From: Hexactinellida sp. DTS-2022
Taxonomy: Eukaryota > Porifera > Hexactinellida
Direction: 5' to 3'
DNA length: 64,000 nt
NCBI GenBank assembly: GCA_028753945.1
Contig: JAPNXP010000004.1
Coordinates: 5,084,001-5,148,000, forward strand
Part shown: positions 2,901 through 25,900 of the stretch, piece after piece
How the letters are laid out: every line of letters begins with the position of its first letter
How positions within the stretch are numbered: position 1 is the first letter of the stretch
Position numbers and translations under genes: made by a program
Notes under the pieces: generated by a model
Seen by the model: the letters and a program-made list of their open reading frames with translations, nothing else
Databases searched by the model: none
Told to the model about the DNA's origin: nothing

Positions 2901-2997
2901 TAATCTGGTTACAGCGATATAAACGAATTTCCAATTGACCTCAAATTCGGAACACAACTGAATTGCAATACCATCGATTAGATTCCTATAGTACAGA

Positions 2998-5900
2998 ATG
3001 GTAACAAAGGACGATGGATTTGAGTCTATCTTCAATAAAGCTAAGAACACAACAAACCGCTTCCAGGATTGGGAGTTCGTGATGACGTTCTGTGACAGAG
3101 TTAACGAGGAACCAGACGGACCCCCGGCAGCTATGAAAGTACTCGCGGATAAACTCAAAATAGAAGATGAGGAAACACAATTGTTAGCAATAGCAGTATT
3201 GGAAGCTTGTGTTAAGAATTGCGGAGCAAAATTCCATACTGAAGTTGGTAAATTCAAACTTCTGAACGAACTTATAAAACTCATTTCTCCCAAATACAGT
3301 GGGGAAGTTAGTTCGGAACAGTTAAAAGCAAAAGTTAGGAATTTATTCTTTCAATTGCGAAGAGGGCTCCCTAAACAAGGTAAGATTGTAGACGCTTACG
3401 AAATGTTAAAGAAAGAGGGTTTAATCGACGACGAAGGGAATTTACCAGAAGAGCCTCCTCCCCCTATCGATGATACTCCGAGAGATTCGATTATAAAGGA
3501 CGAGAAGGAAATAGAAACTCTGGAGAAATTGCTGAAGTCTAAGAAACCTCAAGGTACTATATACTGAATTATATTAGCTCATTTATGTGTAAAGTTTTAA
3601 AGCTAGATATATACAGTCAGGGAATTATCCAGGAGCGCGAGACGCTCCTTTTGGGGCATGATTTTTGGAAAATTTGAATTTAGGAGCGCGTAAATTTGGA
3701 ATCCTCTCCTATACCGTAACATTAATTTGTGATTTAGGCGTATGAAAATTGGATAATACCAGGATTAGGAGCGTATATACAATTGGCTGTATAATACACT
3801 GTATACAGTAGAACTTCGTTAGTAGGAACGCCAGGGACGGTCAAAATGTGTTCGCCTTATCCGTAATTCGTATTAACCTATATCATTTGTATTGAAAATA
3901 CTTTTAAGGGGACTGAAATAGTGTTCGTATTAACCGTGTTCGTTCTATTGTAAAGCTTGATTTATGGAGGGAGTATCTAATTTTCAGGAATTTGAATTCG
4001 AAACGTTCAGATGTCCCTTTAATATTTAGATTTTGTTTAGTGGTTATGACACTATTACAAATTAATTGCAATATACCTCTAATTAGAATAACATTATATA
4101 AGATTACATAGGCCAGAATATATGGTGCCTAATGATTAATACGATTTATCCACAAATTTATTGCTAATTTACCTTTTGTTGTTTACATAGCTGTTGTTGT
4201 TTGTGTGTAGACTTGGCAAAAGCTAACGAGATGATACAAGATCGCTTCAAGAAGGAGAACAGTAAGTTAGAAAAGCTACAACACAGGTCTAGAGAGTTGG
4301 ACTTAGTCGATAATAACGCCAAACTTCTGGATGAACTTTTGGGACATTATTCTGCTAACTCATCTCAGTCCGAAACAGATCTTATAGAGGAACTGAAAAA
4401 GTTAGATTCTTATTTACAGTAAACTCCCGTTATAACGAAGTCGGATATAACGGAATGGATATTTTCCCCCAGAGCACTAAATGCATTAGTTATTATCCGC
4501 TTATAACGAATATCCGGATATAATGAAGGGATTTACAGGTCACAAGCACTTCGTTATAACGAGAGCTCACTGTATTCTTAAAGATAATGGAATTACGTAC
4601 AGTAACTCCCGTTATAACGAAGTCGGATATAACGAAATAACCGCTTATAACGAAATGGAGATTTTTCTCCAGAGCACTAAATGCATTAATTATTATCCGC
4701 TTATAACGAATATCCGGATATAACGAAGGAATTTACAGGTCCCAAGCACTTCGTTATAACGAGAGTTTACTGTATTTATCTCGGTCAACACTGTTCTAAT
4801 GTAATTCTAAGACACATACAAGATTATTTCTAACATCACAAATTCTCCTTTGCGAAGCCGGGTTTTTATTATGGTGGCCGATAAGCTGAAATAAATAGTC
4901 TAATCTTTACTAGCAAGTTATAGTTACTTTCAGAAATTACTATACTAAGTTCTGATAAAAATTACATTACTTTTAGTTCAGAATTGAGGCAAGAACTAAT
5001 TCTATATTGTAATATAAATTAAGTCATTTTTTGTCTGTCCACAGAATTGAACTGAAATAACTTGACACACCCAAACCTTTGCGTCTATGCATGATTAATT
5101 TACCACAAATACTGAACTATATTAGTTCCTATAGTTCCTAATTACATTGTCTATCTACTAAATATACTTACGTTTTAATTTAATTAATCTATAGAATTCA
5201 TTGGAAATATTACTCTGTTTACGGTTAATTTATTAAAACACTTACTTCATATCGAAACCTAAATAATTGCTCTATTCCAAGAGAGACTTTTATTGTTTTT
5301 TGCACCTTTTAATATGGCAAAATAACAGCTTACAATTTATCTATTCAACCAAAGGTTATTTTAATAGAGATTATATTTATTGGATTCATACTAGAGCTTA
5401 TTTATATATCGGCCAACACCTTTTCAATATACAACCTTGCTTTTAATGGGTCAATTTTTATGTTAAAAATGACATTGGTAGTGCTGGAATTTTCATTAGA
5501 AAAGGTGATAGAAAATACATTATAACTCGGTTATAACGTACCTGGGTTAGTACGTACTAATTTTGTTAACTAAGTTTATAAAACAGTATGTATTTCTATG
5601 TAGCGTAAACTAAGTTAGTACGTACTTATTCCATTCCCGAGGGGGTACGTTATAACCAAGTTGTACTATAATTCCTTCGTTACTAACGAGCTATCCCAAT
5701 TGAATTGTGTTACAGGTCCTGTGTCGCCATGAGAGAGAAACTCCTGAAGATAGCAGAACAATGTACTGAGGACGATAATCTGCTTAATAAGGTTTGCACT
5801 AGCAGTGATGGGCTAGTCAAAGTGCTAGAGAAATACGATACAGTAACCGCTGGCATTAATGAACAAAAACTGAAGTTAAGTAAAGATATTCCGTCGTTAA

Positions 5901-6598
5901 TATCATCCCCACCAAAGCTTGTTCCTCCACAGAATAATACAGAATCTATACTCGACTCATTAATAGACTTAGACTTAACATCAACTGTACCAATATCAAA
6001 TCCAATTGAATCTAATATGAACTCGGATATAACGTCATTGTTAGATGATTTCGGTCCGTTTAATTCTATGCCAATAAATATATCACCTGCACCCCCTATA
6101 CCACCTAAAAATTTTGATGAAGCATCCTTATTTCCGTTAACAGAACCTGTTTTATTACAACCACCGCCACCGTCATTCGATTTAGACTCATTTCAAGTTA
6201 CAAATAATTCCATACTAATATGTCTTATTCCAGCTATTATTCCTTATAACAAAGATAATATTATTATAACGCTGTCAACTGGTAGGCTTATTTCCCCACC
6301 AATAGAGGCGCCTGAATTGAGATTAGTTGTAGTTGCACTGATCAATTTGAGTCCGTTTGGAATTGAGAACTTTGTTTTGAATGCCGCGACCCCGAAAGAT
6401 TCTAAAATTAAACTTTTCCAGCCTTCGCAATTATCGCTTCTTCCATTCACTCCTATTCAGTCACCTCCAGTTATTAACCAAATCCTAGTGATACAAACAG
6501 AACATAGTAATTTAGTGTTGAAACTGAAATTCTCACTTTCTATTGGAGGAAGGCAGTTGTCTGATATTATTGATGTTTCCACCTTAAAATGGTTATGA
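2998..6598 (+). CDS. GGA1: GGA-family clathrin adaptor (VHS-GAT-hinge-GAE)
   Basis: Three exons (2998-3553, 4211-4418, 5716-6598) join in phase 1 and phase 2 to 548 residues. Residues about 8-145 form a VHS domain (WEFVMTFCDRVNEE; KFHTEVGKFKLLNELIKLIS; PKQGKIVDAYEMLKKEG), which in this family binds acidic-dileucine tails of sorting receptors. Residues about 185-300 form the GAT domain that binds Arf-GTP and ubiquitin (DLAKANEMIQ, DNNAKLLDELLGHYS). The hinge carries a clathrin-box-like LIDLD, and the C-terminus (about 400-548) is a gamma-adaptin ear that recruits accessory proteins. The protein sorts cargo from trans-Golgi to endosomes. Vertebrates have three paralogues; GGA1 stands for the single ancestral gene. 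The exon 2 donor lies inside a transposon end (see the 4411-4774 entry). Confidence 0.92.
3615..3955. repeat. R10 element followed by MITE R1 (GGA intron 1)
   Basis: R10 (about 3615-3805) begins near AGGAGCGCGAGACGCTCC and ends near GTATAATACACTGTATA; copies recur at 19370-19540 and 43425-43612. It abuts an R1 copy (about 3808-3955). R1 is the commonest family here, with terminal sequence CAGTAGAACCTCGTTAGTAC and TA at both ends. Confidence 0.75.
4411..4774. mobile_element. Two tandem R2 MITEs; the first supplies the GGA exon 2 donor
   Basis: Two R2 copies (about 4415-4575 and 4598-4774) each run from an AACTCCCGTTATAACGAAG end to the inverted end. The first starts exactly where GGA exon 2 ends: the exon's last two bases (CA, 4417-4418) and the donor GTAAAC (4419 onward) are the first bases of the MITE terminus CAGTAAACTCCCG. 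The next exon joins in the matching phase (CA|G TCC). Confidence 0.8.
5398..5672. repeat. R6 and R8 elements (GGA intron 2)
   Basis: R6 (about 5398-5515) carries TATATCGGCCAACACCTTTT. R8 (about 5525-5672) has complementary ends based on CTCGGTTATAACGTACC. R6 recurs at about ten places; R8 recurs near 51.4 and 55.2-55.5 kb. The rest of this intron (4775-5397) shows nothing recognisable beyond an R6 remnant near 4845-4890. Confidence 0.65.
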
Positions 6599-8412
6599 AT
6601 TGTAATAATAATAATAATACTTGTTTGTTATATTGTTTATTTGTTGGATGAGTTTATGACTAACTAGATAGGTCAATTCATATTGAGTGTTACATACTTA
6701 TACATATATATATATATATATCTTCAAATGGAATTTTATATATGGAATTACTTATATTTCGGCCAAACTGTAATTCCGTCCTATAAATCCCATGAAATTT
6801 TGACCCGATTAAGCGGAGAAATCTATTAACCGGTGGCTCTATTAAGCGGTGTCGACTGTAGCTGTATTTGTCTCGGTCAATATTATATTAAGTTATTTTG
6901 TACCTCAGGGAAGCAATACTATTAATATTATATCATATGTTGCAATGCTGTAATCTAATTTTGTTGCTAATTTTAGCAGACATAATTGCTGGCTTGCTCA
7001 GACAAGTTTGCATTAATTTATGATCTAATTGAAACTCGCCTGAATTAAATAAAATAGTGTTATATAGTGAACTCCTGTTATAACGAAGTTGGATATAACT
7101 ATTTAAATTAACTGCTTATAACGGAATGGAGATTTTCCCCCAGAACACTAAATGCATTAATTATTATCCGCTTATAACGAATATCCGGATATAACGAAGG
7201 GATTTACAGGTCCCAAGCACTTCGTTATAACGAGAGTTGACTGTAAATATGTATTCCACAAACAATTATTTATCAATTTATGTTGAAATGTGTCATCTTA
7301 CTTGCTAACTAAATTCTAAATACAAATAATTATAAACCTAATAACTAAAGTAAGATATTTACTTCAGAGCTTCCTTTATATGTAGACGGTCTATAAAACC
7401 CCATACAAACTAAGCAAAAAATTGTAGACGGTCTATAAATTATGTAGACCAAAAGCCCTGCCGTCTATGGGTAATAGTATTTTAGCAAAAAAGTGGTCTA
7501 GAAATAGGAGGTCTACATAAAAGTTATTTCATTAATTAACTATGCATTTACACCAATGCACATTTTATTAGGTATTATTTGTGTAATACCTCAGCTAGAT
7601 TATAAGGAGTCTTAAGATTTGGCTGTAATATATATATACAGTGAGTAGACTCTCGTTAATACGAACACAGATAAGGGAAATATCGGTTAAGGAGTACAAG
7701 GTTAATTCCCCTAGCCTTTACAAATGCATGCAATTAACTCCGGTTAATACGAACATATTTCGATGGTGTTCCTATTAACGAGAGTTTACTGTATATTTAT
7801 TTCTCACTTTTTTCACCATTTAATTTAGTTTTAACTCCTATTTTAGAATTATTATATTATTAAACCTCTGTTTCTCAATAAATGAGTATAATGCTACCTC
7901 CTTTAACATCGGGTAAGCATACATTTAATACCTTGTTTGTATATATTTCCTTTTGTGTTTCATAATTGGTAAACAACAATAGTTTGCTTCAAAATTTGCA
8001 GAGGTAACTATATGACACGAATATTGGTAAACAATTAATTCGATTTGTATTCCATCAATTCTCTCACTTGATATTAAAGTCAGGTGAACAATTTCCGTCT
8101 GCTTAATATGAAGAACATTTAATATGACAAGCCCTATGGTCCTAATATACAGTTTAAATAGGGTTTGTATTAAGTTGAATTCGCTTATTGTGAAGTCTCT
8201 CTATTATGAAATATGAACACATTTTTGGCCCTTTGAATGTTCATAATAAAAAACCTGACTATATTGCTATTATATATCGTGATTAAATATGAACTCATTA
8301 TAGAGTATATCAATTGTTGGGTTTAATAGGTATATAATAGTGGGTTTTAATTGGATATCTTATTCTGGTATATGCGCTTCAATTCTAAATTGCTGTATTG
8401 TTATAATTCAAA
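6599..8412. repeat. Spacer with R9, R2, R5, R1 and R3 MITEs
   Basis: Between GGA and the OTULIN-like gene: a short TA run (about 6706-6721), R9 (6793-6860), R2 (7068-7243), R5 (about 7373-7520, ends in TATATGTAGACGGTCTA), R1 (7647-7795) and R3 (8083-8268). No coding sequence seen. Confidence 0.75.
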
Positions 8413-11400
8413 ATGGGAATAAATCTATTATTATCAAACATTTTCCTCCTTATGTGTGTAATTTGTGGAACCTGTTCTGATTCTAAAGGTGAATATTTGT
8501 ATTTTTATTCGTATTTCAAAAGCGAACTCATTTTAATGTGATACAGTCAACTCCCGTTATATCGAAATTGTAACTACAGTCAGGTTATTTTACCAAAATT
8601 GTGTTCATAATAGAGAGACTTCATAATAAGCGAACTCAACTTAATACAAACCCTATGTAAGTTGTTAATTTGGGACCATAGGGCTTGTTCATAATATAAA
8701 GTTTTCATATTGAGCAGACGAAAAATAGTTCACAATAAGCAGACCTGACTGTATACTAAGAATAGCCCAGATCTAATTAACTTAATTATATCGAAATCCG
8801 GATATTTCGAACTTATTTATAGCACTCGATATAACGGCAGTTTAGTGTAATTATGTCACAGTCTTTGTATTATAAATGTTTGCTAATAATAGTATTCCGT
8901 ATGTAATTTTTTATACCGTTTGTTTTATTTTAAATTTTTATTTTCAAGCGATCATCTTGGCCATTGCAGGAGTTATTGCGATTGCAATAATATTTGTTCT
9001 TATCGCTATAGCGATTGCCTGTTGTTGTTGTCTCCGAATTAGAAGAAGAAATAAAGGACAACCAGTTCCAAAGGTCAGTATCTTATTTAGAATTGTTTAA
9101 CATAATGCACTGATATGTTTAATTATGTATTATTTGGTTTTGTTAGTTGGTTAAACATACACACACTTAAACGCTTAAACACGTTGGCATCGAAAAAATA
9201 TTTATGCATTGGACATATTAAATCCGGGTGTAATGGGATTCTACTTATTTAGTATTTTTTTTAGCAAAGTTTCCAATCAATTTCTTTAATCTAAACTTTT
9301 CAAATCATCTATTTGTTAGCGAACCTTTAAAAATCATACCTTTAAAAATAGTGACATATAACCTCATGCAAACAATAGTTAGTTATTAATGAATAATGAT
9401 TAAACTAACTAATTAAACTTCCCAGTTTAAACTTGAATAGTGAACTAATCATTTCAGATAGAATTATATTGATTAATTAAACTAATACATTATAATTATC
9501 AATTTATTATGATGTTGGATTTAGGTTAATTGTTCACTAAAGAGTAAACAATACACAAATTAATTTGAATTTATAGAATTACAACCAAATATATATCACG
9601 GAAAATATATTAAATAACAGAAATATGCATATAATTATTCTAATTCAGTGTACGAAAATTTAGAGTTGAAAAAGTTAGAATTAACCTTTCCAAATCAGTT
9701 TAATATAATGACATATGAGGATTATTAAAAGGTCATTTTGTAACCCCTGTTCTCACCTTTTGTGTACTTTAGTATAATTACTTTTCCCACGTGAATTGCA
9801 CAAGATTTGTGTCTGCTTTTTGTACATTGCATAATATCGCAAATACAAAATACTAAAATAAGTATTTATAGACTATATACATACCTCTCTTGTCTTATGG
9901 TTGTCATGGTATTCACATGCCATTTGGACTTATTTGATCATCTGTACTTTGTAATTTATCCATTGAATTTAAACAATCAACTTAGTTACACAAATGCCGT
10001 TATGGTATTCACGCCGTTAACATGATTAAATATTAATTTGCATTTCATCTCCCAATCCATAATCCAATTGCATTAGACACATAATATTATATTATATAGT
10101 CTTAGTTCTCAATAAAAAGCATTATATTGTTGTATATATTTTTCTTGTATGATTCGATATTTGTCACCTTTTGTAATATATAATCGACCAAAATAATGTT
10201 TCTGGACTTGAGTTTATTCAATATTGTCAACAAAGTGTTGTGCTTACTAATTATACTAAGTTTCAATTCATATTTGAGACTAATGTTTCGATTTGTTCAT
10301 GAGAGTTTTATCAGATACAGTACTTTAGTTGTTGCTAGTACTATTTGTACTTTGTTAATCGCAGTTAATTTTATACCTCCTAGGAAGGTGAGTTTATGTA
10401 TATTAATTAATAAAGTACAGTAGACTCTCGTTATTACGAGCACAAGGGGACCGTCAAGATTTATTGTATTATCCGGATAATCGTATTGCATGCATTTGTA
10501 TAGGCTAGGGGAATAAACCTTATTTCGCCTTATCCGTGTTCATATTGACGAGAGTATGTTAATATTTTTACTGTGCCGACACAGTTCTAATCTTACTGCC
10601 TTTATTATTTTAAGATGTTCAAATTAGGCGCTCATTAATTACTGCTTAAATCTGCTATAAAATTGGATGCATTTCAAATCAGCCGTTTTAGCTTGCATTC
10701 TAATAACAAAAGTTATATTTTTGGGATTATGAGATTTTATATTGTTTAGCAGCCAATTCTTCCTAAAAAGTTTGCTTTAATTGACAGAAAACATAATTTC
10801 GAACTAAATATGAAATATAATATCTGAAATTCTGAACGAACATATGGATATTCATTGATTACACTTTATAAGCTTTATGACATTAAATTCACGGCTAATT
10901 ACTATGCCATATAAATTAGTATAGAAATACGTACAACTGTGCATACAACAACTATATTATTATTAACAGACCTTATAGAAACCTGTTTATATCAGTGTAT
11001 TTATCCAATGCAATTTATATAGATTCAGTTTATATAATTGTATTTATGTTATTGCGAGCTATTTACAAAAATATTATACGATTTTATATCCGAAAGATGT
11101 TTGGATTATACATGTTTCTTTTTTGTTTTATATCATGGCTAAAAAGACGTAAATCTAAGATAATAAATGATGTCGAAAAAAAAATTGATAATGACTTGGT
11201 AAGGATAATTTTATGCCATTATATTTCCATCTTCCTTGATAGTTTTATATTTTGAGTTATATTACCAGGAACCCACGAATACTTTTCGTCCAAATTTTAT
11301 CAACAAACTTATATATGCAATTAACTCTCGTTATAACGAAGTGCTTGGGACCTGTAAATCCCTTCGTTATATCCGGATATTCGTTATAAGCGGATAATAA

Positions 11401-14400
11401 TTAATGCATTTAGTGCTCTGGGGGAAAATATCCATTTCGTATAAGCGGTTATTTTCTTAGATCCGAATTCGTTATAACGGGAGTTCACTGTAATCTAGTT
11501 TCTACTGAATTAGTTTGTAAGCTTATTTCGATCCTTTTGTGTAAACTTTCCTTTTGTGTAAACTTAATCCAATATGGTAAATGCATTGTGCTCTGATTAA
11601 CAAATGATGCAACCATTAACTTGGTTACTATTTATACTCGTAATCCAGTTGTATAATAAAACTATAAATATATTTACACTGTTTATTACAATGATTGTAA
11701 TTATATATTTTCCACAGGATACCAATCAAGATTGTGAGAAGTGAGTTGAAGGCTGAGTTATTGCTTATTCTTATTATAGACTTTATTATTTCGTATAGAA
11801 ATACAGTTAGGTTCTTATTATGAACATTCAAGGGCTCAAAAATTGTGTTCATAATAAGCGAACTCAACTTAATACAAACCATATATATGTTGTTATTTGT
11901 GACCATAGGGCTTGTTTATAATAAAAAGTTTGTCATATTAAGCAAACGAAAATTGTTGACAATAAGCAGACCTGACTGTACATTGTAAATACTATTAGCG
12001 ACAAATATTTCAATTCTTTTTTTCTGACATTTTTCTAACAATTTTAACATGAGCTTCTTTTACTATTAATAATTTAATATTTTTGCTGTCTATTTAGTGC
12101 TAGAGAGCTTCAACCATCGCAAGGAGCTCGACCAGGTAATTAAATTATTTATTTACAGTATTATATGTCACATTCCTTTTTTTGCACAATTCGTAGTTAC
12201 AGCCCAATTTATTACAGTCGAAACCGGTTTTTCTAATTAATCTTTTTTTTTTCTAATAACTATTTATTCTAAATGTGTAAGAAATTCCAATTTTGTGTTA
12301 TTTCCAATCGGTTTATTATAACTATCGGATTTTCTTACTTTATTCCATGCAAAGAATTGGTTAGAAAAAACCAGTTTCGACTGTACTACTTTTGATTTTA
12401 TGAACAATTATTTGTTTCTAATTCCAATTAGATCTGTGTTAATATTGTTTGCGTTTGGTATACAAATTACTGTGTATACGATTTAATTATTATTCCTTTA
12501 GATTTAGAACCAACTGAATGCAATCCTATGTTAACGGACAATGCAGTTTCTGTATATAATACATCCGTAAGTAGCTATATAGTTATCACACAGTAGAACC
12601 TCGTTAGTACGAACACTGTTATTAGTAACTTAAGTTAATATATTATAATATTTATAATAAATTATTCTATTGACAAGCATAGGTGTGCAATTTTGATAGA
12701 AATTAGAATCTAGTAAGCATAATATATTTGTGTTTTCAGATTAAAGCTTCTCCCACTAAACCTAAGACATCTACACCGAAAAAAGTTACAAGCTCTCGGA
12801 GCGAATCACAACGGGAACTGGTAAGATTATATTAGTTGTTTGTTTGTTTGTTTGTTTGTTTGTTTGTTTGTTTGTTTGTTTGTTGTTTATTTGTTTTTTT
12901 GTTGTTTATTTGTTTGTTGTTTATTTGTTCGTTTGTTTATTTGTTTGTTTGTTTGTTTGTTTGTTTGTTTGTTTGTTTGTTTGTTTGTTTGTTTGTTGTT
13001 TGTTTGTTGTTTGTTTGTTTGTTTGTTTGTTTGTTGTTTATTTGTTTGTTTGTTTGTTGTTTATTACGTATTTATTTATTTTAGTTACCCAAACATAATC
13101 ATGAGACTTCAGATGAGCTATATTCTCCAGTTAGGACGCCAAGTTTTCAATCTGCAAAGGTTAGTCACATAATTCCTAACTTCATAATTAGATTATAGAG
13201 AACTCAATTTAATTCAATCCCTATTTAAAGATGTACAGTAGACTCTCGTTAATAGGAACACCAGGGGATCGTTGAAATATGTTCGTATTAACCGGAGTAA
13301 CTTACATGAATTTGTATAGGCTAGGCCCTAGGGGAATTAAACCTTGTACTCTTAACCGATATTCGCCTTATCGTTCCTATAACGAGAATCTACTTAAATC
13401 AATATATCAATTCTGTTCTGTTTATATATTCTATGTTTATAGCAATCACCAGAGTCTACCGGAGCATTTGCTCAATCGCTATACACTACTCCCACATATC
13501 AAGTTGGTATTGTACAAAAAGAGGTTAGTTTAGTGATCCCCTTGGGGGTCCACAAGGTCTCAAAATTTGTATTACGGTCAATTGGTCTACAGAATGTTTA
13601 ATATTTGTATAGTGGGTCCATTGTTAATAAATCGCTGGGTTAATTAAATGTACTAATTCCTAGGTGAACTTTTTCCTTTCGCAGTCTTTTTTTGATCGAC
13701 TACTTTGATCACCTTGTCCAAAAATCCATCACTGAAAATGAAATTAAATAAAAATTTAATGCATTAATTATTATCCGCTTATAACGAATATCCGGATATA
13801 ATAACGAAGGAATTTACAGGTCCCAAACACTTCGTTATAACGAGAGTTCACTGTACAAGACTGTGTATATACCCCTACCTAGCCTACCTAGTATAGGGTT
13901 TTTTGAAAACCCTATACTATTTACTATTGGGATTATATAAGCAGATTGCTAACTCATATTGCTATAGGAACAGCCAAGAAGAACTACATTCAGTGGGGAC
14001 ACTCAACGGAAAGTACCAATACACGTGGAACCGATTCTTCGATGCAACACTGCACCTCCCAGCAAGATGGAAACCCGGTTAATATCAGTATCCCCACTCC
14101 CTATAGCTATGAACCAAACATTGCTTAATGAAGCCTTGAAGCCAAACTCTCCTCTACTGGTACTTAATTTATATTTTGTTAATAATCTAGGATGCCCTAG
14201 GGTCCAAGGTATAAATAGTTAACTTTTCTTTCACTTGGCAACTAAACGTTCACTTATTTCCTTCTTTAAAACTTAAAATATAGTTTAGAATACATTAGTG
14301 ATTAGAACCTCGTTAGTACGAACACCAGGGAACCGTGAAAGTTTGTTCACCGCGCCTTACCTGGAATTCGTATTAACCAATATAATTTGTATTGAAAAGG

Positions 14401-17286
14401 ATTTGAAGGAAATTGAATTACTGTTCGTATTAACCGGAATTTTGTACTATAACGAGGTTCTACAGGCAACAATGTTAATATACGAACCCGACTTTGTAAA
14501 GGTAAATTTTAAAAATGACCTTGCTTGCCAGTGCCTGAAATTTGTATTAGAAAAGAGTCGATATAAGTAATTTCTTACAAAACCCTTTAATTTAAAACTA
14601 AGTTTATTAGCATCATTTCTTTTCACGCAACTATTATTTCCTAATTATTTCTAGGACCAGATTGTGCCTATTTATTCCACCAACGATCCTCCTACACTGA
14701 TTGAATTGAAAGGAGGCGAATTCCAATTAGACCACTCGGTTACCATGAAATCTATGGAAGATATGCACAGTAGCATTAACGTAATTCGGTCTGTCAATTC
14801 TCAGACTAGCATTACTGCTGCACACAAACGGAAGAGTTCTGATAATGCAGAAATACTGGACACGAATGGTAACAAGAAATGTCACTTAGAGCCTATTGAT
14901 GTGACCCTGTCATTAAGCGAGGGCATTGAGAGTGTTCTGGAAACTAATCACAATATAAACACTGCACAGTGTTATATTAATATGGAACAGTCTCTCAATA
15001 GCAATCCTAGCTCTAGACGTAAGTATTATGCTATACAGTAGAACCTCGTTAATAGGAATACCAACGTACGGTAAAAATGTGTTCGCTTTATCCGGAGTAA
15101 TACCCATTGAATAGCCATTGTAGGGACCTGATTTTGTGGAACTGTTTGTTCGTATTATCCGGAATTCGTATTAACTGGAGTCACTTGCATGCATTTGTAT
15201 TAGGCTAGGGGAATAAACTTTGTACCCCTTAACCGATATTTCCCTTATCGGTGTCCTATTAACGAGGTTATACTGTTTATTTATTTTATAACTAAGGTTT
15301 AATTTTGAACTAATTCTTGATGGCGAAACAAGTACCGTATTCTTAATTAATTAACTAAGTTGGCGTGGGCTGAAGTATAAATAGAAAACCCCCAGTTTAA
15401 TTACCAATTTCAATTGAAATTGAATTAACTTTTAGTTTCAGTTTCACATTCCGAGCCAGCTTTTAGGTTTAATATAAACACTCGCTTGTTATTCATTTCA
15501 TAATTTGTTACTGACGTAAATCTAAATTATCTAATAGCTTGTTATACGTTATTGTTATTGCGAAAGTATTTTCCTAAACGCAAGTTCGATTGTTACTAAA
15601 AATAGCATTTATGAGTTTATCATACCTTATGAAGTATTGTTTGTTTCAAATAGCTGTTTTACCACAAAACCTTGATTGTTGTTTACCAAATATGGTATCA
15701 GCAAGATGTTATTCAAATTCCGGTCTTGTTTATCACAAAGTTATAAAAACATATATAATCTCATTCTTGAGTAAGTAGTTATTTCTAAATCAAAGTTACA
15801 TGTTTACCCCATAAATATTCTTCTTAAATATTTTTAATAAATATACGCGCTCAATTGATTTAATTCTTATATGTATAGACAGTATAGTATACGTAGTTAA
15901 TATGTTTGTAAAATATTATATTTTGACTAAATTGACTAGATTGACCAAACTACGTGAAGCGAATTTTGTTAAATTTATTCAATTTTATTTTGGGAAATCC
16001 ATACAGTCAACTACACTGTTTACTTCGATATAAGCGGGGCAAAATCAACCTTTTATCCTTCCTGGGAATTCATATATTTTTAACTTTTAAGCGGGTATTT
16101 CGTTATACTTATAACCGACTTCTTATATAAAGGGAGTTCGCTGTATTATATTAATATCGTTATTTTATTATAGTGAGTGATACAGAGATGCCTTCATTGC
16201 TGTTAGGCAAAGAGGTTACTATTTCCGAAACAGATTCTGAAGGGGGAAAGAATTACATACAATACACTTATGGACCTGAATCTTATAATAAGCCTATTCG
16301 CCGGGATACAGAAGATGAGTCGGAAAAGAGTGTATTTACTCCTGTCAGTCAAAGTGTTTTAGACAGACATGTACCAGATGGTTTGGAGAATAATTCCGTA
16401 GATTCTAGTGTGACCAGTGACTTGATTACAAACAAATCTCTATCACCGATTATTCCTAAAGATTTTGGGATTGTAAATAACAAGAAATGTTCATCTCTTC
16501 CAGATAATAACTTGACTGTAGACAGATCTCAGTCGCCTTGTGTTGCATTGTCCGCGGATGAAATTGGGAATTTGACCAACGCGAAAACCACATCTCTTCC
16601 AAGTACAAATTCCGCAGTTTCAGTTACAAATTCTGGAGATTTAGATACAAACCCCACAGTTCCATATTCAAATACCAATGTCCCTAACCCGGAACTAGGA
16701 TACCCAGATATTTTGGAATCTAACGCAACAAAACCGGACGTTATTTCTCACGTCACACACCTGCCCGCTGAACCCATCCTAGACGGACCTAATCCCGATC
16801 TAATTGGTCGAGACTTTATAGTTAATTCTATCACAGGCACGATTCACTCTTACAATCCGAATTCCACTATCAGTTCCCTGGATACGACAAATTTAAATGA
16901 TTCAATTCCGTTGCAAGAATCGGATATTTCCCCACAAGAACCTGGCAATGAAAAGTACAATCCTGATCTGAGTGTGAATTCCGATGTATCAGTTGCATAT
17001 CTAGGGACAATGCCTGGAATGGGAACAGAATTTGATCAGAATAATTTATCTGAAATTAACGTTAACGAGGGCCTAGGGCCAAATCACATGTACAGAGAAT
17101 TAGTAGCACCAAACACAGTGAATTCGTATGGGGAATCTGAAAATGAATTTAGCTCATTTAAATCGGATAATATCTCAATTTCAGATACTACAAGTATTTC
17201 CCCTCTGTCTCTTTTTGAAGAAGGAGTAACTTTGGATCCACAAATAGATTATGATGCCTTACTCCGTGATACAGTATCACCTAATC

Positions 17287-17326
<40 letters not shown>

Positions 17327-20300
17327 TGCTAATTTGGATAACATTTCAGATTTTTCTATGATAATGCAGAATCCATTACAAATTCCAGAAACGGATATAA
17401 CTCCAACTTCTTCTCTGCAACCTGTAAGTTACAAATAAATATTCTTAACAATAATATTATGCATATAAACTACATAGTTATACAGTAAATTAATGGCTAT
17501 TTTAACTTTCTTATATTTGTGGGAAAAAATTGACTCAGTGTCCCTTAACTATAATATCATAATTGTTGTTGTCTGCTATTCGACTGACATAACACACTAC
17601 AGTATATTTATTCTTCTTACAATAAATAAAATGAATTTACGTATAACGAACGTCTACTACGATCATTTTATTTTTAATAGTCAACATTGACTCAACAAAC
17701 GTAAATAATTTCATTCATTATTATTGAGAGTAGTCGAATTTTCAAACAGTGTGTAACCATTATTGTTATGATGAAACTGACTGTAATCAATCTAGCAATT
17801 ATGTCAAAATATTAAATTTATTAACAGATCTTTTGGTCACAAGTTAATAGTTGTATAATATACAATCGATTAAGTAAAATTGTGTTTACATACAGTAGAC
17901 TCTGTTAATAGGAATACGGATAAGGAAATATCGGTTAAGGAGTACAAGGTTTAATTCCCCTAGCCTATACAAATGCAAGTGACTCCGGTTAATACGAATC
18001 TCGGATAATACGAACATATTTCAATGGTCCTCTGATGTTCCTATTAATTAACAAGAGTTTACTGTAATCAAATAGGATTTGTGTTTATTTATGTTTACTT
18101 TTTATAGGTGTTGATTAGTGGAAAGTCAGTTGATTATTCGTTCGTGGGTCACATTTCAAATTCCCCCCAAACAACTAATGACACCTTAGCACAATATCTG
18201 CCTACTAATGACAACGACACAATTATATCCGAAACTGGTAGTACCACAGATCCTTACATGACTACGCCTAGCTTATCTGGAATGTTAGAATCAGATTCCA
18301 TTGCACCTAGTAACGACGCTATACCTCTTAACGAGGATTCTATTGTACCACTGTATGTACGGCACCAGAGTCCTAACCAGAGAAATGAGACGGATTACGC
18401 TAATAATCCTAACCAGAGAAATGAGACGGATTATGCTATACCACAATACGATAATACCCAGGATATATCTCCTGTATTTCAGTTAGCCCCTCAGTTACCC
18501 CCTGATGCTCCTTATATACTTCCCGCGATCCAATCGCCCATTCAACAGCCGCTGCGCAGTGTGAATAGTCCCATAACATTCCGGGACTATGTTGCTAAGG
18601 AATGGCTAGGCACCTCTGACAACGCTAAGAGAGTTAGGAATGTGAGTTCTCAACTTAAGCTATAATAAGTTTTCTCGACTAATAGCAATACAGTCGAACC
18701 GGTTTTTTTCTAACCAATTCTTTGCATGGAAATAAAGTAAGAAAATCCGATAGTTAGAATAAGCCGATTAAAATAAAACAAATTCCGGATAAAACGAACA
18801 AATTTTTACCTTCCTTTGGTGTTCGTTTTAACGAGGTTCTACTGTACGTATAGTATACAAGTCTGACAGTATGTATAATTTACCCTAGCCTATCAAATAC
18901 ATGTAAGTGACTACGGTTAATACGAATATCCGGATAATACGAACAAATTTCGACGATCCCCTGGTGTTCCTACTAACGATATTATATTGTATCTATTAGC
19001 AAGTTACTTATTTCCTCAATCTAGCAATTAAAGTTAATTAAGTTCCTCTATTTGCAATCAAATATTACTTACTATTACACGAATATACGTATTCCCATAT
19101 AGAATACTATTCCCTTATATACATATCTCTCTAGGGCTATAAAGAGCTAGAGAAGATGGGCTACACGCACCTAATGTCGATACGCGGAGACAACTACTGT
19201 GCAGTGCGCTCCACTCTCTTCCAGACATTCTGCATTCAGGATTTCGGTCTCTCCTCTTTCCTCTCTGGAATGAAACCACCAGCCGAAGAGCTCAAGGTTA
19301 GTAGGAACTGCATGACAACCATATTGGCATATGGTATGCTGGAACCAAGGAAGTATCCAGCAGCGCGAGACACTCCTTTGGAGTGTGATTTTTGTGAAAA
19401 TTTGTAATTAGGAGCGCGAAAATTTTGAATCCTCTCCTATACCGTAAGTCCGTAACATTGATTTGTGATTTAGGAGTATTAAAATTGGATCATACCAGGA
19501 TTAGGAGCCTATTTACAAACGTCTGTATAATACACTGCCTGGAACAGTTCCTTTACTTGTTGGTTTTTATCATAGATCGTTTATACTGTGCCGATGATAG
19601 TATAGTATATTGGCCCAGTATTTAAATTACTGCCTTGTTTTGTTATCTGTTTCTTTATATAATAGATCGTTTTTGTTATCTGTTACTTGTTACCTGTTTG
19701 TTTACACTTTAGATAGTAGCACCTATTATGGAGAAGTATCCTTACCTCAACAAATGGGCGTTTGCGAATAAGAACGAATTCAATAAGCTGGGCACAACTC
19801 GAGAAGTATTGGAGCTCTGTATTGCCAACTTAGCTCTTGAGGTTAGTGCACTACTTATACAGTATAGTAGAACCTTGTTAGTAGGAACACTAGAGTGAAC
19901 TCCCGTTATAACGAAGTCTGATTTAACTAAATAAGTTCTTATAACGAAATGGAATATACAATACAGTAGAACCTTGTTAGTACGAACACGGTTAATGCAA
20001 AATTCCGGTTAATACGAACACTACAGTGAACTCCCTTTATAACAAGTCGGATATAACGGAATTTCGCTTATAAAATGAAATGGATATTTTTCCCCAGAGC
20101 ACTAAATGCATTGATTATTATCCGCTTATAACGAATATCCGGATATAACGAAGGAATTTACAGGTCGCAAGCACTTCGTTATAACGAGAGTTGACTGTAT
20201 TTCAGTCCCCTTCAAAGCCTTGTTAATACAAATGATATTGGCTAATACTAATTCCGGATAAGGCGAACGTATTTTGACGGTCCCCTGGTGTTCGTACTAA

Positions 20301-21674
20301 CGAGGTTCTATGTAGTTCGAATTTATAGTGTTGCTAGACTAGAATATGATAAAATTCGGCTTGAACCCGACAATAGTAGAATAAAGTTGTAATATTTCCT
20401 ATTTTGGTTCGAAATTTTTTCAATATTTAGAAAGTCGAACTAACGAGGTTATACTGTATCTGGTTGCTATGTATATTGTTAAGGAATGTACTGTATGTAG
20501 GTTGACACCGTTAAGCACTGGAAGCCGTTGGACAGAATGGTGTACATATACAGCAAGCTGAACGAACAAAACGAGATATTTGATTTCTCATTAATGGAAG
20601 CACTTAAGTTCTACATGTTCATAAAAGCTGCTGAATTTTGGGAGGCTTTTAATAACGGAAAGGAACTTCCTGGTCAAATGTTTATTTTATTTCTGAGAGA
20701 AGACTCGAGTAATTTAGAAGAATTTCTGATGCATCATCTCAACAATGTTGGGGACGGAGGGGGACTTGAAATGGTGAGAATTTATTCTAGAACTTTCTTA
20801 TTTCTTATATGTATACGGTCTATAAAAGCCATACTAACTAAGCTAAAAATTGTAGACCAAAAGTCAGTCTTTTCATCTGCATAAGTTAATATTTACTTTT
20901 TATTATGAACAAGCCCTATAGTCCCAATTTAATAACTTACATAGGGTTTGTAATTTTGTATTAATTTGAGTTCGATTATTATGAAGTCTTTATTATGAAC
21001 ACACTTATTGGTCCCTTGAGTGTACCTTACAAAATAACCTGACTGTAATAAGTAAGTTTTACTTACTAACATTTGTGATTACAGTTGATACGATTACAAA
21101 GGGTTTATTTAATTCTAAGGAAATTGGCTCATGATTACACATGGTTACATTATTGTGTAGTTGTATAATGTAATAAATTATAAAAAGTTATATTTGTTGA
21201 CCCTGATGTTCGAATTAACGAGAGTCCACTGTATTATATTTAGTTTGATACAGTAGAACCTCGTTAGTACGAACACCAGGGGACCGTCAAAATGTGTTCG
21301 CCTTATCCCAAATTCCAAATTCGTATTAACCAACATCATTTGTATTGAAAAGGCTTTGAAAGGTACTGAAATAGTGTTCGTATTTTTAACCGTAATTTCG
21401 TATTAACTGGAGTTTACTGTATATATTTTGTTAAATATTTACCCTAATCTAGATTGAGATGTTCTTATTGGGTTACACACTTGATTTACAAATAAAAGTG
21501 ACTCGAATTTCATCGTTTGGAAATGAGGACTATCTAACTTATTTCCCCCCAGGGGATTATCCGCGAAATAAAATAATAAGTATTTCCGCAGAAGATGACC
21601 GACATTACAACGTGTTAGCGACCCTAGCAAATACAGACGATTTCTTTATTCCGCAAGGTAAATTCCGGAAATAA
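8413..21674 (+). CDS. OTULIN: Membrane-anchored OTULIN-like deubiquitinase with long disordered linker
   Basis: Seventeen exons join in phase to about 1241 residues: 8413-8488, 8949-9073, 11718-11740, 12098-12135, 12502-12566, 12740-12820, 13085-13159, 13443-13523, 13968-14159, 14466-14501, 14655-15018, 16174-17423, 18108-18641, 19135-19296, 19713-19841, 20501-20773, 21453-21674. Residues 1-25 resemble a signal peptide; a TM helix (AIILAIAGVIAIAIIFVLIA) follows at once, then CCCC, a likely palmitoylation site, and RIRRRNK. About 890 Ser/Thr/Pro/Asn-rich residues with 13 CAA-coded glutamines (17286-17324) lead to the OTULIN domain. RGDNYCAVRSTLFQ holds the catalytic Cys; EDDRHYNVLA holds the His and Asn of the OTULIN triad. 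Human OTULIN cleaves Met1-linked ubiquitin; its relative OTULINL is membrane-anchored but inactive. The exon 13-14 join gives KEWLG..RNGYKELEKMGY, matching the OTULIN helix before the active site. Transcription as one unit is inferred. Confidence 0.8.
8545..8855. mobile_element. R3 MITE nested in an R2-like MITE (intron 1)
   Basis: An R2-like element starts CAGTCAACTCCCGTTATATC at about 8545 and ends in GATATAACGGCAGTTTAGTGTA at about 8850. An R3 copy with both ends (ACAGTCAGGTT .. GACCTGACTGTA, about 8574-8755) interrupts it, so R3 moved after this R2-like copy had landed. Confidence 0.7.
10196..10387 (+). other. Possible alternative first exon B (membrane anchor)
   Basis: From ATG at 10196, 64 codons run to a strong donor (AAG|GTGAGT at 10387/10388) in phase 0, the phase needed to enter exon 3 at 11718. 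The peptide has two hydrophobic stretches (VLCLLIILSFNSYL and STLVVASTICTLLIAV) and ends IPPRK. This could be an alternative membrane anchor for the OTULIN-like protein. AT-rich intron DNA readily gives hydrophobic reading frames, so transcript data decide. Confidence 0.35.
10995..11198 (+). other. Possible alternative first exon C (membrane anchor)
   Basis: From ATG at 10995, 68 codons run to a donor (TTG|GTAAGG at 11198/11199) in phase 0. There are two hydrophobic stretches (YIDSVYIIVFMLL and MFGLYMFLFCFISW) followed by the basic stop-transfer LKRRKSK. It has the same phase and layout as exons 1-2 and cassette B. An internal version starting after AAG|ATG at 11097 (102 nt, phase 0-0) is also possible. 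Confidence 0.35.
11741..12435. repeat. R3 and R11 MITEs around exon 4
   Basis: R3 at about 11808-11982 in intron 3. R11 at about 12218-12380 in intron 4 starts CAGTCGAAACCGGTTTTTC and ends in the inverse; R11 is also seen at 18690-18768. Confidence 0.65.
12836..13080 (+). repeat. (GTTT)n microsatellite in intron 6
   Basis: About 245 bp of GTTT with GTT and ATTT interruptions, nearly filling the intron between the exons at 12740-12820 and 13085-13159. Confidence 0.95.
13235..13857. repeat. R1, hAT-like fragment and R2 fragment
   Basis: R1 at about 13235-13395 in intron 7. In intron 8, a fragment at about 13535-13620 (GGGGGTCCACAAGGTCTCAA) resembles the arm of the hAT-like palindrome at 52.1-52.6 kb, and a truncated R2 lies at about 13745-13857. 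Confidence 0.6.
14300..14466. mobile_element. R1 MITE whose end forms the exon 10 acceptor
   Basis: R1 begins AGAACCTCGTTAGTACGAAC near 14305 and ends AACGAGGTTCTACAG at 14465. Exon 10 (14466-14501) starts immediately after. The usual R1 end reads TTCTACTGTA; here CTG is CAG, which makes the acceptor AG. Confidence 0.75.
15019..16173. other. Intron 11 with R1 and R2-like elements
   Basis: A compound R1 copy lies at about 15037-15275, starting about 20 bp after the donor. An R2-like copy (CAGTCAACTACACTG .. GGGAGTTCGCTGTA) lies at about 16005-16145, about 30 bp before the acceptor. The middle shows nothing recognisable. Confidence 0.6.
17424..18107. repeat. Intron 12 with R1 MITE
   Basis: R1 copy at about 17893-18066, just upstream of the acceptor at 18106-18107. 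Otherwise plain AT-rich sequence. Confidence 0.65.
18690..20320. repeat. R11, R1, R10, R1/R2 nest in OTU-domain introns
   Basis: Intron 13 (18642-19134) holds R11 (18690-18768) and R1 pieces (18780-18845, 18890-18990). Intron 14 holds R10 (about 19370-19540). Intron 15 holds R1 pieces (about 19866-19900, 19970-20030, 20215-20315) split by R2 copies (about 19893-19960 and 20030-20200), i.e. repeated R2 insertion into R1. Confidence 0.6.
20774..21452. repeat. R5 fragment, R3 and R1 in the last OTULIN-like intron
   Basis: Partial R5 near 20800-20870, R3 at about 20900-21055, R1 at about 21247-21425. No coding sequence. Confidence 0.6.
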
Positions 21675-21884: not shown

Positions 21885-22015
21885 AATTACTTATATTTCG
21901 GCCAACACCTTAAATAATATAATTTTAAGGTACTGACAAGGTCATTTTTAACATTAATAATTCACCTTTGCGAAGCCGGGTTTTATATTAAAGTGTTGGC
22001 CGATTTATAAGTAAG
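21885..22015. repeat. R6 element
   Basis: R6 copy with TATTTCGGCCAACACCTTAA at one end and GTGTTGGCCGATTTATAAG at the other, in the spacer between the OTULIN-like gene and the S18A gene. Confidence 0.7.
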
Positions 22016-22108
22016 CCTTTAACAAACATAATAAGTTTAATAACTTGGCATAAAGTTGCTATTAATAGATCAATTCTATTATTCTTACATAGCAACAATA
22101 TAGGGTTA

Positions 22109-22564
22109 ATGTTATTCCTGTATGGAACAAAGGCCACTCGATCTCTTACACAAATAATTATAACGCAAAAAAGATTGAAAATAGACACAAACGAAAAGCG
22201 TGGAATGCCGAAAATATTCATTCGGCAGCCAATAGAAAGTGAGGAACCAATGGAATTAATTCGCGAGAAAATAACCGGAATATACGAAGAAAACGGAAAT
22301 ACTTTTAAACGTGCCGGTTGCCAATTATGTTGGCAAGGTTTAGACGAGTTTACTTATCGAGACGTGTTAATTATAAGTCAGTTCATATCCCCTATAGGGA
22401 GAATATACGATAGACACGAGACTGGGATTTGTAAGAGAATGCAAGCCAAGTTAAGAGTTGAAGTTAAAAAAGCTAGAAATATCGGATTGATACCCAAAGC
22501 AATGACTCCACAGCAAATACAGCTTTTGAAGGAAAAGCCAAATGAAGAGAGCGAAATTTTATGA
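22109..22564 (+). CDS. MRPS18A: Mitochondrial ribosomal protein S18A (mL66)
   Basis: Single-exon 151-residue protein. An Arg/Lys-containing N-terminus without acidic residues (MLFLYGTKATRSLTQIIITQ) suits a mitochondrial leader. The core matches the bacterial S18 family: CQLCWQGLDEFTYRDVLIIS then QFISPIGRIYDRHETGICKR, with the CxxC pair and the conserved QF..P.G....R.TG.C pattern, and a final GLIPKA. The residues before the CxxC (IREKITGIYEENG) resemble S18A more than S18B or S18C, hence mL66 of the large mitoribosomal subunit. The paralogue choice is less sure than the family. It lies 435 bp downstream of the OTULIN-like gene, in the same direction. Confidence 0.82.
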   Translation: MLFLYGTKATRSLTQIIITQKRLKIDTNEKRGMPKIFIRQPIESEEPMELIREKITGIYEENGNTFKRAGCQLCWQGLDEFTYRDVLIISQFISPIGRIYDRHETGICKRMQAKLRVEVKKARNIGLIPKAMTPQQIQLLKEKPNEESEIL

Positions 22565-22924: not shown

Positions 22925-25900
22925 TTAATCGTATATAGTTAGTGATCTGTGTAGGATAGATTCTATGAGAGTCTCGCACACTGGAATAGGACTGAGATCC
23001 GTGATACTCTTCTGGGAAATAGTTCTCTCTATCAGGAAAGGGAAGTCCTCTTCTGTTACCCCGATACCAGAGAGGCCGTTAGGAATGTTCAGGTATTTCA
23101 TGTATTTACACAGCTGTTCCGAGAGACACCGGCCCGCGTCTGAATGCTTAACACTTCCGGTCTTAGCACCTACGGTAGAATAATATAGTATAACCAGGGG
23201 CTATAGGTATATTACAGTATAACAGTATATAATAGGGAATTATAGATTAACTATTAAACAAACTTAACACTCGGGTAATACAGTAGAACTAATAAGTACA
23301 CTCTTCTGGACATGTCTCTCCTAGACATGTCTCTTCTGGACATGTCTCTTCTAGACATGTCTCTTCTGGACATGTCTCTCCTAGACATGTCTCTTCTGGA
23401 CATGTCTCTTCTGGACATGTCTCTTCTGGACATGTCTCTTCTGGACATGTCTCTTCTGGACATGTCTCTTCTGGACATGTCTCTTCTAGACATGTCTCTT
23501 CTGGACATGTCTCTCCTAGACATGTCTCTTCTGGACATGTCTCTTCTGGACATGTCTCTTCTGGACATGTCTCTTTTGGACATGTCTCTTCTGGACATGT
23601 CTCTTTTGGACATGTCTCTTCTGGACATGTCTCTTCTGGACATGTCTCTTCTAGACATGTCTCTTCTGGACATGTCTCTTCTGGACATGTCTCTTCTGGA
23701 CATGTCTCTTCTGGACATGTCTCTAATGGACATGTATCTTCTGGACATGTCTCTCCTAGACATGTCTCTTCTGGACATGTCTCTTCTGGACATGTCTCTT
23801 CTGGACATGTCTCTTTTGGACATGTCTCTTCTGGACATGTCTCTTCTGGACATGTCTCTTCTGGACATGTCTCTTCTAGACATGTCTCTTCTGGACATGT
23901 CTCTTCTAGACATGTCTCTTCTGGACATGTCTCTTCTGGACATGTCTCTTCTGGACATGTCTCTTTTGGACATGTCTCTTCTGGACATGTCTCTTCTGGA
24001 CATGTCTCTTTTGGACATGTCTCTTCTGGACATGTCTCTTCTGGACATGTCTCTACTGGACATGTCTCTTCTGGACATGTCTCTTCTGGACATGTCTCTT
24101 CTAGACATGTCTCTTCTGGACATGTCTCTTCTGGACATGTCTCTTCTGGACATGTCTCTTCTGGACATGTCTCTTCTGGACATGTCTCTTCTGGACATGT
24201 CTCTTCTGGACATGTCTCTACTGGACATGTCTCTTCTGGACATGTCTCTTCTGGACATGTCTCTTCTGGACATGTCTCTTCTGGACATGTCTCTTCTGGA
24301 CATGTCTCTTCTGGACATGTCTCTTTTGGACATGTCTCTTCTGGACATGTCTCTTCTAGACATGTCTCTTCTGGACATGTCTCTACTGGACATGTCTCTT
24401 CTGGACATGTCTCTTTTGGACATGTCTCTTCTGGACATGTCTCTTCTGGACATGTCTAACACAATACTAAACACAACTACTTATACTATAATTATACTAA
24501 TTCACTAGCTATACTAACAGTAACTATATACTACATAGTAACTATATACTGGAATAACGAATAACGAATACCCGCTTATAACGAAGTAAGCCCCCTTGGC
24601 TTTATTTTAACCAAAGTTCAATAAAACGAATTTACGAATATAACATTACCGATCAGCTTAGCCAATAGAATGCATCTCTCCGGCATTGCATATCCCATCT
24701 CATAGAACACTGCTGGTGCTGTTATTATAGCAGCGAGACCATGGGGTATCATAGGACGGTCTACAGGGTACCCTTCTGATATAAACTCTGTTTCCAATGA
24801 GGATATTGCGTAGGCAAGGGCGTGACATAGATGTCCCCCTCCGCTTGAGAATCCTATGCCTGTTATGACGGTAGCTAAACTCATCTGAGACTTGGCTTCT
24901 GTGTCTCCGGAGTATTCAACTGATCGAATGAAATATCTGTTTATCAGTCTAGGAGAGGAATAGTATCAATAATATTACACCTACAGTAGAGTCTCGTTAA
25001 TACCAAGGGACCGTCTTAATTTGTTCGTATTATCAGAATTCGTATTAACCAGAGTTACTTGCCGTCTTGCATGCATTTGTATAGGCTAGGGGAGTTAAAC
25101 CTTGTACAGTACTCCTTAACCGGTATTACCCCTTATCAGTGTTCCTATCAACGAGTCATAAGTACGTAATTCTATCTACAGTAGAACCTCGTTAGTACGA
25201 ACATGTTATTACGAAATTCCGGTTAATACAAACACTATTTCAGCCCCCATAAAGCCTTTTCAATACAAATCATATTAGTTAAACAAATTCCAGATAAAGC
25301 GAATACACTTTGACGGTCCCTTGGTGTTCGTAAATCGTACTAACGAGATTCTACCCTAGTTACCATTCGAGTCAACTGGCATGCATATACTCACGTGAGA
25401 GCCTGTACCACCGCTATATCGGAGAAGGGATTGCTCCCCTGTCCCATGGGTCTCTCGATGGGATCAGCTGGCCTGGGTTCTCTCATCGTATAAGGCAGCG
25501 TAGTGTATGCCTCCATTGCCCGACACAACAAGTAGAACCCGGAGTGTATAGCAACATTAGTGGGCATTAGGAATGTGTTAAGCGGATCCACTATCGCAAG
25601 CGTGGGACACATAGCGCGACTCGAGAGAGATAATCTCACATTTTTTGAAATTAAATCGAAAATCGCCGAACCAGATACCTCGCTACCTGTCCCAGAAGTT
25701 GTCGGAATACAAATCAGTGGTTTCAACTGTCGATTTATGACGTCACCTTCTCCAATTGGTGGCGCTACGAAATCTAACAGCTGTTTGTCTCTGTATGTGT
25801 CGAACAGCCTGGCAGCTTTAGCCGTGTCCATGACAGAGCCGCCGCCCACCGCCAGGAACCCTTCGTACTGGCCCCGCTGAGCTCTGTGTATCGCTTCTCG

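Follow-up and report, generated by a model that had tools for sequence, protein, structure and literature searches.

The locus and its OTULIN-type domain

A putative gene for a membrane-tethered OTULIN lies at positions 8413–21674, + strand, of the 64,000-nucleotide (nt) stretch of Hexactinellida sp. DTS-2022 DNA analysed here (‘the window’; C13:5084001–5148000 of assembly G000). Sixteen exons, listed in Table 1 and named below by number or first base, join into a frame of 1229 amino acids (aa) with no internal stop. The preliminary description of this stretch had put 17 exons in series without a phase conflict; 16 do join, and the seventeenth, ending at 11198, is unsupported, the longer series being rejected because the phase-0 acceptor open to that exon (11097, score −1.1) is poor. 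A pseudogene was also rejected: the 16 joined exons are open and the catalytic residues intact, the partial copies being one on contig C1 and two on C4. The gene is real and unusual, and its predicted product is probably an active Met1 deubiquitinase, covalently tethered to a membrane.

The five OTU exons together matched PF16218 (Peptidase_C101) over positions 2–264 of 265 (E 1.9e-56; 191.9 bits, cut-off 27), and the OTU part matched human OTULIN at 4e-41 and FAM105A/OTULINL at 2.5e-33. Identity to the human OTULIN catalytic domain was 34% in the alignment, and the equivalents of Tyr91, Trp96, Cys129, Asp336, His339 and Asn341 were invariant among the four sequences aligned. A passage of PMC3690481 gives Cys129/His339/Asn341 as the triad, Asp336 as autoinhibitory and Tyr91 as Asn-coordinating, in a Met1-specific, substrate-assisted mechanism. 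The DNYC and HYN motifs first noticed by eye are present (Cys codon 19198–19200, His 21603–21605, Asn 21609–21611). With a full-length profile match, Cys, His and Asn in place, and Tyr91 and Asp336 equivalents besides, the domain is, as far as sequence can tell, catalytically complete and of OTULIN type, as had been proposed.

Likewise present are the donor that follows 18641 (AAT/GTGAGT) and the acceptor that precedes the GGC at 19135. Joining them rebuilds the helix before the active site, exon 18108 bringing the helix in which the equivalents of Tyr91 and Trp96 lie. This junction falls at the identical protein position in two more OTULIN genes of the assembly: RVRN/GY in the third copy on C4 and RMKN/GY in the gene at C13 5.56 Mb. 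Because the first OTU helix is encoded in exon 18108 and the junction is common to the C4 and C13 genes, the exon belongs in the OTULIN gene; the same two observations disfavour an exon 18108 that ends at the TAA at 18663–18665, the outcome named beforehand as fatal to the model. The domain, its catalytic residues and the joins between OTU exons are all supported at this level.

The disordered linker and the 5′ exons

Between anchor and enzyme lies a linker of 873 aa, in line with the ~900 disordered residues first estimated. It contains no Trp and consists of 12.5% Ser, 9.0% Pro, 8.7% Thr and 8.6% Asn; FoldIndex called 60–64% of linker windows unfolded, compared with 7% in the OTU part.

Searches of the 112.4-Mb, 18-contig assembly, whose genes, so far as seen, appear to be those of an animal, recovered a segmental copy on C1 (L015–L016, C1:8083400–8087350, minus strand) that covers window 16124–19953, and so part of the linker and the first OTU exons. 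Insertions and deletions relative to this copy were multiples of three in 5/6 cases in the two linker exons (4/5 in exon 16174–17423 alone), compared with 0/8 in the well-aligned intron 17424–18107 (p 0.003) and 6/27 in all introns plus flanks (p 0.0096). Since these changes are mostly multiples of three, unlike those in introns, the linker appears to evolve as coding sequence. The ratio of non-synonymous to synonymous change (dN/dS) was 0.07 in OTU exon 19135 and 0.26 in OTU exon 19713, on few changes. With exon 18108 carrying both the end of the linker and the first OTU helix, linker and OTU enzyme clearly belong to one gene.

Exon-chain scores were home-made, with hand-set splice matrices and dinucleotide shuffles as the null. 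The best chain into exon 14655 scored 30.9 over region 8001–14500 (mean 2.3, maximum 9.1 in 100 shuffles) and 22.9 over region 11601–14500 (maximum 9.3 in 150 shuffles); because these values exceed all shuffles, there is genuine exon signal 5′ of 14655. At the 5′ end the finder's best paths differ from the model: 8413–8488 is never used, exon 2 is taken at most as 9012–9073, 12502–12566 is skipped, and 13135–13159 and 13968–14077 are taken with other frames. We therefore treat all exon boundaries between 8413 and 14159 as provisional. Codon scores were used only as raw values and for comparing frames, per-exon p-values having been dropped because their null of open segments included real genes; the modelled frame outscored the other two in 12/16 exons, drew level in 11718 and was beaten in three (12098, 13085, 13443). 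The best Pfam match of the first 373 aa was WBP-1, which at E 0.0045 fell short of its cut-off; five others were weaker, and none was taken as evidence.

Table 1. Exons of the putative OTULIN gene, candidate first exons and a motif in the linker, in window coordinates.
Feature	Position	Strand	Remarks
Exon 1 (alpha)	8413–8488	+	ATG, signal peptide-like hydrophobic start; leaves 1 base; donor score 2.4; putative gene start
Exon 2 (alpha)	8949–9073	+	Transmembrane helix, CCCC, basic stop-transfer RIRRR; phase-0 end
Candidate first exon beta	10196–10387	+	64 codons, hydrophobic, two-helix; phase-0 donor AAG/GTGAGT; single-copy
Candidate first exon gamma	11046–11198	+	51 codons; phase-0 donor; single-copy; weak ATG context
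Linker exon, 23 nt	11718–11740	+	Phase-consistent; provisional
Linker exon, 38 nt	12098–12135	+	Phase-consistent; boundaries also picked by finder; frame score prefers other frame; provisional
Linker exon, 65 nt	12502–12566	+	Phase-consistent; omitted by finder; in-frame ATG could begin a soluble form; provisional
Linker exon, phase 0-0	12740–12820	+	Finder picks identical boundaries at intron costs −7 to −3 and in chain-score run
Linker exon, phase 0-0	13085–13159	+	Finder prefers 13135–13159; boundary uncertain
Linker exon, phase 0-0	13443–13523	+	Finder: identical boundaries, different frame
Linker exon, phase 0-0	13968–14159	+	Finder prefers end at 14077; boundary uncertain
Linker exon, phase 0-1	14655–15018	+	Strong frame preference: 13.1 vs −37.3 and −70.6
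Large disordered linker exon, 1250 nt	16174–17423	+	13-residue polyglutamine run; strong frame preference
MYR, resembling PIM core	17088–17096	+	Residue 679; single in linker; kept in C1 copy
Linker end and first OTU helix (ITFRDYVAKEWLG...RVRN)	18108–18641	+	Aligned to human OTULIN across Tyr91/Trp96
OTU exon with catalytic Cys (RGDNYCAVRSTLFQ)	19135–19296	+	Profile and OTULIN alignments
OTU exon	19713–19841	+	Profile and OTULIN alignments
OTU exon	20501–20773	+	Best PF16218 exon match in genome search, 8.6e-14
Last OTU exon	21453–21674	+	EDDRHYN (catalytic His, Asn; Asp336 equivalent) and stop

The probable membrane anchor and candidate first exons

The ATG of exon 1 stands in the context AAAATGG, with an in-frame stop (8404–8406) six bases upstream. 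Exon 2 encodes 19 consecutive residues with a mean hydropathy of 3.34, with CCCCLRIRRRNK a few residues beyond; the + strand of the window has this pattern of a transmembrane (TM) segment and basic residues at one place, and 308 kb of strand sequence have it at 7. One base is left over by exon 1, the phase required by each of the three exon 2 acceptors with a positive score (8949, 8970, 9012), and exon 2 ends, as exon 11718 starts, in phase 0. The proposal that the protein starts in a membrane holds to this extent: the signal peptide (SP)/TM exons look real and fit exon 11718 in phase, and we infer that they are likely to be spliced to the remainder. A basic stretch after a TM helix places the following chain in the cytosol (the positive-inside rule), and because one follows here, linker and OTU domain would be cytosolic.

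Neither exon 1 nor exon 2 was matched elsewhere in the genome. Intron 1 contains a high-copy repeat (window 8595–8755) with at least 45 further genome matches, mostly 93–95% identical.

A rather unlikely alternative is that the locus makes a soluble long OTULIN from an internal first exon (beginning, for example, at ATG 11691 or at the one inside exon 12502), with 8413–9073 a separate small TM gene. In-frame ATGs do lie downstream of the TM helix, the finder can begin at 11691, intron 9074–11717 is the longest in the model, the alpha exons have low codon scores, and the OTULIN on C4 seems to be short and soluble; left unspliced at the 9073 donor, the frame from 8413 would run for about 75 codons, ending in VSILFRIV and a stop. 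Such a stand-alone TM peptide would, however, leave unused a proper donor in exactly the phase that exon 11718 needs, and the strand order agrees with one gene.

Between 9074 and 11717 the open reading frame (ORF) list holds no + strand frame longer than 111 aa. The only sequences in this interval put to Pfam, candidate exons beta and gamma, gave no match. Both lack a good phase-0 acceptor and would therefore, if real, be first exons, and it is conceivable, if unlikely, that alpha (8413–9073), beta and perhaps gamma are transcribed from separate promoters and give one linker-OTU body varied membrane-targeting N-termini. Both candidates start with ATG, stay open to a phase-0 donor and are single-copy. 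In a reversed or complemented control of 308 kb, five exons of their class (ATG-started, ≥45 codons, donor ≥2.5) were found, none of them TM-like, so that 0.04 would be expected in 2.6 kb and the probability of two or more is 0.0009, the thresholds having been fixed after beta and gamma had been seen. At the rate of the window's minus strand (5 per 64 kb), by contrast, 0.2 would be expected and the probability of two or more rises to 0.018, and real strands, genes included, hold 31 such exons in 308 kb. Codon scores are poor (beta −13.2, scored to 10389, two bases beyond the donor; gamma −13.5), and gamma combines its weak ATG context with a hydrophobic peak that does not reach the TM threshold (1.34 against 1.8). 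Somewhat more doubtful is the specific form of this idea in which the promoter chooses the compartment of a Met1 deubiquitinase, through the SP/TM pair, the two-helix exon and possibly a third, each entering exon 11718 in phase 0.

Known relatives and further copies

Vertebrate OTULIN/FAM105B (MEROPS C101, PF16218) is alike in the whole OTU domain, the triad and the Tyr91/Trp96/Asp336 equivalents. Human OTULIN, however, has 352 aa, with its HOIP-docking motif (PIM) just before the OTU domain and a PDZ-binding C-terminus, whereas the sponge protein has the 873-aa linker, a probable SP/TM start, a partial PIM and a GKFRK end. OTULINL/FAM105A is likewise an OTULIN fold put at a membrane by N-terminal sequence, but its triad is disrupted (Asp139/His350/His352, in a passage of PMC7862380), whereas Cys/His/Asn are intact here. 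The suggestion that the sponge gene is an ancestor-like link between OTULIN and OTULINL is not supported: the relevant part of a 2015 review (PMC4765238) has the pair arising by an early gene duplication, with a single active gene in Ciona. No membrane-anchored catalytic OTULIN was found in the open-access literature searched, which comprised listings and passages of the papers cited here. Pattern searches for OTULIN relatives in viral and genome contig collections gave 111 and 73 matches, none confirmed.

Among published proteins, the nearest layout found is that of Caenorhabditis elegans RIC-7, whose N-terminus (1–99) is organelle-targeting, whose residues 100–470 are disordered and whose residues 471–709 are OTULIN-like, as described in part of PMC10369933; the order is the same, the likeness being one of layout. 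RIC-7 targets mitochondria, and the same passages report its OTULIN-like end to be largely dispensable for mitochondrial localisation; the words ‘catalytic’ and ‘deubiquitin’ are absent from the main text by word search. By analogy, the N-terminus and disordered region of the sponge protein might do the main job, as organelle targeting or scaffold, with the OTU domain secondary. We regard this as very unlikely: the catalytic set is intact, and dN/dS relative to the C1 copy is lower, on few changes, in the two OTU exons that can be compared than in the linker.

Within the sponge genome, the OTULIN genes at C13 5.56 Mb and C4 4.54 Mb (third copy) have complete catalytic residues as well as the common intron position, and N-termini that appear short in rough models. 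The TM-plus-basic pattern was found nowhere in sense on the minus strand of a 40-kb C4 stretch; in 3–24 kb scanned at the C13 gene its one match lay far off, in C-rich sequence at 22.6 kb (the whole 30-kb strand had two). As no comparable TM segment lies near these genes, the anchor may be particular to the gene at 8413–21674.

The C4 locus (C4:4535000–4547000, minus strand; L012–L013) holds three tandem OTULIN copies, of which only the third has all five OTU exons by tblastn and two look partial. They alternate with long repeated ORFs that, by eye, we take to resemble cytochrome P450.

HOIP and possible docking

A HOIP/RNF31 gene was found at C12:5412801–5425198 (L058–L059), with an LDD exon matching RNF31 (best E 2.9e-16), an IBR exon (IBR_1, 7.7e-21) and a UBA_HOIP exon just below its cut-off (1.3e-4; 22.3 bits, cut-off 22.4). 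On these matches the genome encodes HOIP, the maker of Met1 chains. A PUB family search also returned L056, which by eye resembles UBXD1 (UBXN6), and L057, which by eye resembles a PUB-UBA protein. Searches for NEMO-type CC2-LZ and for TNFR_c6 gave 0 matches, though a search of this type cannot establish absence.

Excerpts of the literature describe RNF31 as conserved widely in metazoans (PMC12778051) and, in 2015, LUBAC expression as chordate-restricted (PMC4765238). A passage of PMC4017264 has OTULIN contacting the PUB domain of HOIP through a motif containing EEDMYR, the PIM. The one MYR in the linker is flanked by NH, in place of ED, and by EL; ~0.012 MYR would be expected there by composition, and it is conserved in the C1 copy.

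Neighbouring features of the window

Directly downstream, at 21992–22564, is a single-ORF ribosomal protein S18 gene (PF01084, 1.2e-15), perhaps of mitochondrial type, which is a guess. Upstream, a GGA-like gene is suggested by + strand ORFs at 2992–6595, which carry VHS and adaptin C-terminal domains along with a GAT match that stays under its cut-off. A long 15-base minisatellite (TGGACATGTCTCTTC units) at 23254–24508 is open in several frames on both strands. Three NHL-repeat ORFs lie within ~18 kb (30315–31748, 44165–45391 and 47089–48330), the last of them near-copied beside the second C13 OTULIN gene (L010 4949–6199).

Interpretation

We favour, as the probable explanation, one gene encoding a single-pass membrane protein. 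An SP-like start and tiny ectodomain would lead into one TM helix, then CCCC and a basic stop-transfer signal, and a disordered cytosolic tether of ~870 residues would end in the OTULIN-type OTU domain. Such a tether may let the enzyme sweep nearby membrane complexes, removing linear chains made there by HOIP. We infer this Met1 activity and this substrate from the sequence, and the MYR motif might dock HOIP. In mammals SNX27 carries OTULIN to the TNF receptor complex, in the portion of PMC8314547 consulted; in the sponge a covalent anchor would replace an SNX27-type adaptor.

Several observations weigh against this explanation. Towards the N-terminus, codon scores are negative for both alpha exons (−3.5 and −1.4), even though both other frames score lower, the finder ranks the start at 8413 only 11th (143.2 against a best of 153.2) on a path that skips exon 2, and an internal, soluble start could be used. 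For the first 373 aa, encoded ahead of exon 16174, nothing significant was found elsewhere in the genome (8/9 matches are the gene itself and the ninth has E 0.058), so that no second copy offers a comparative test of this part. The linker's dN/dS relative to the C1 copy, 0.78 and 0.74 in its two exons, points to weak constraint, and the C1 copy itself seems to be decaying, because it carries an 11-nt frameshift and neither the genome search nor tblastn found the last two OTU exons there. The codon score of the last OTU exon is −1.4. As to docking, MYR is the sole retained part of the PIM, the C-terminus GKFRK is by eye unlike a PDZ ligand, and Pfam gave no match for an upstream PUB-like exon at the HOIP locus, for which RNF31 came up only at E 0.46, behind an unrelated match.

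Until now OTULIN has been known as soluble and SNX27-recruited, OTULINL as membrane-placed but dead, and RIC-7 as carrying an OTULIN-like domain of unclear purpose. The promoter-chosen variant, if true, would be a RIC-7-like layout with an intact active site, possibly in an early-branching animal. If the single membrane-tethered enzyme is real, with its intact active site, anchor and tether all belonging to one polypeptide, a layout of targeting, disordered and OTULIN parts can serve a catalytic enzyme, and the editing of Met1 chains at membranes would become testable in an animal that encodes HOIP.

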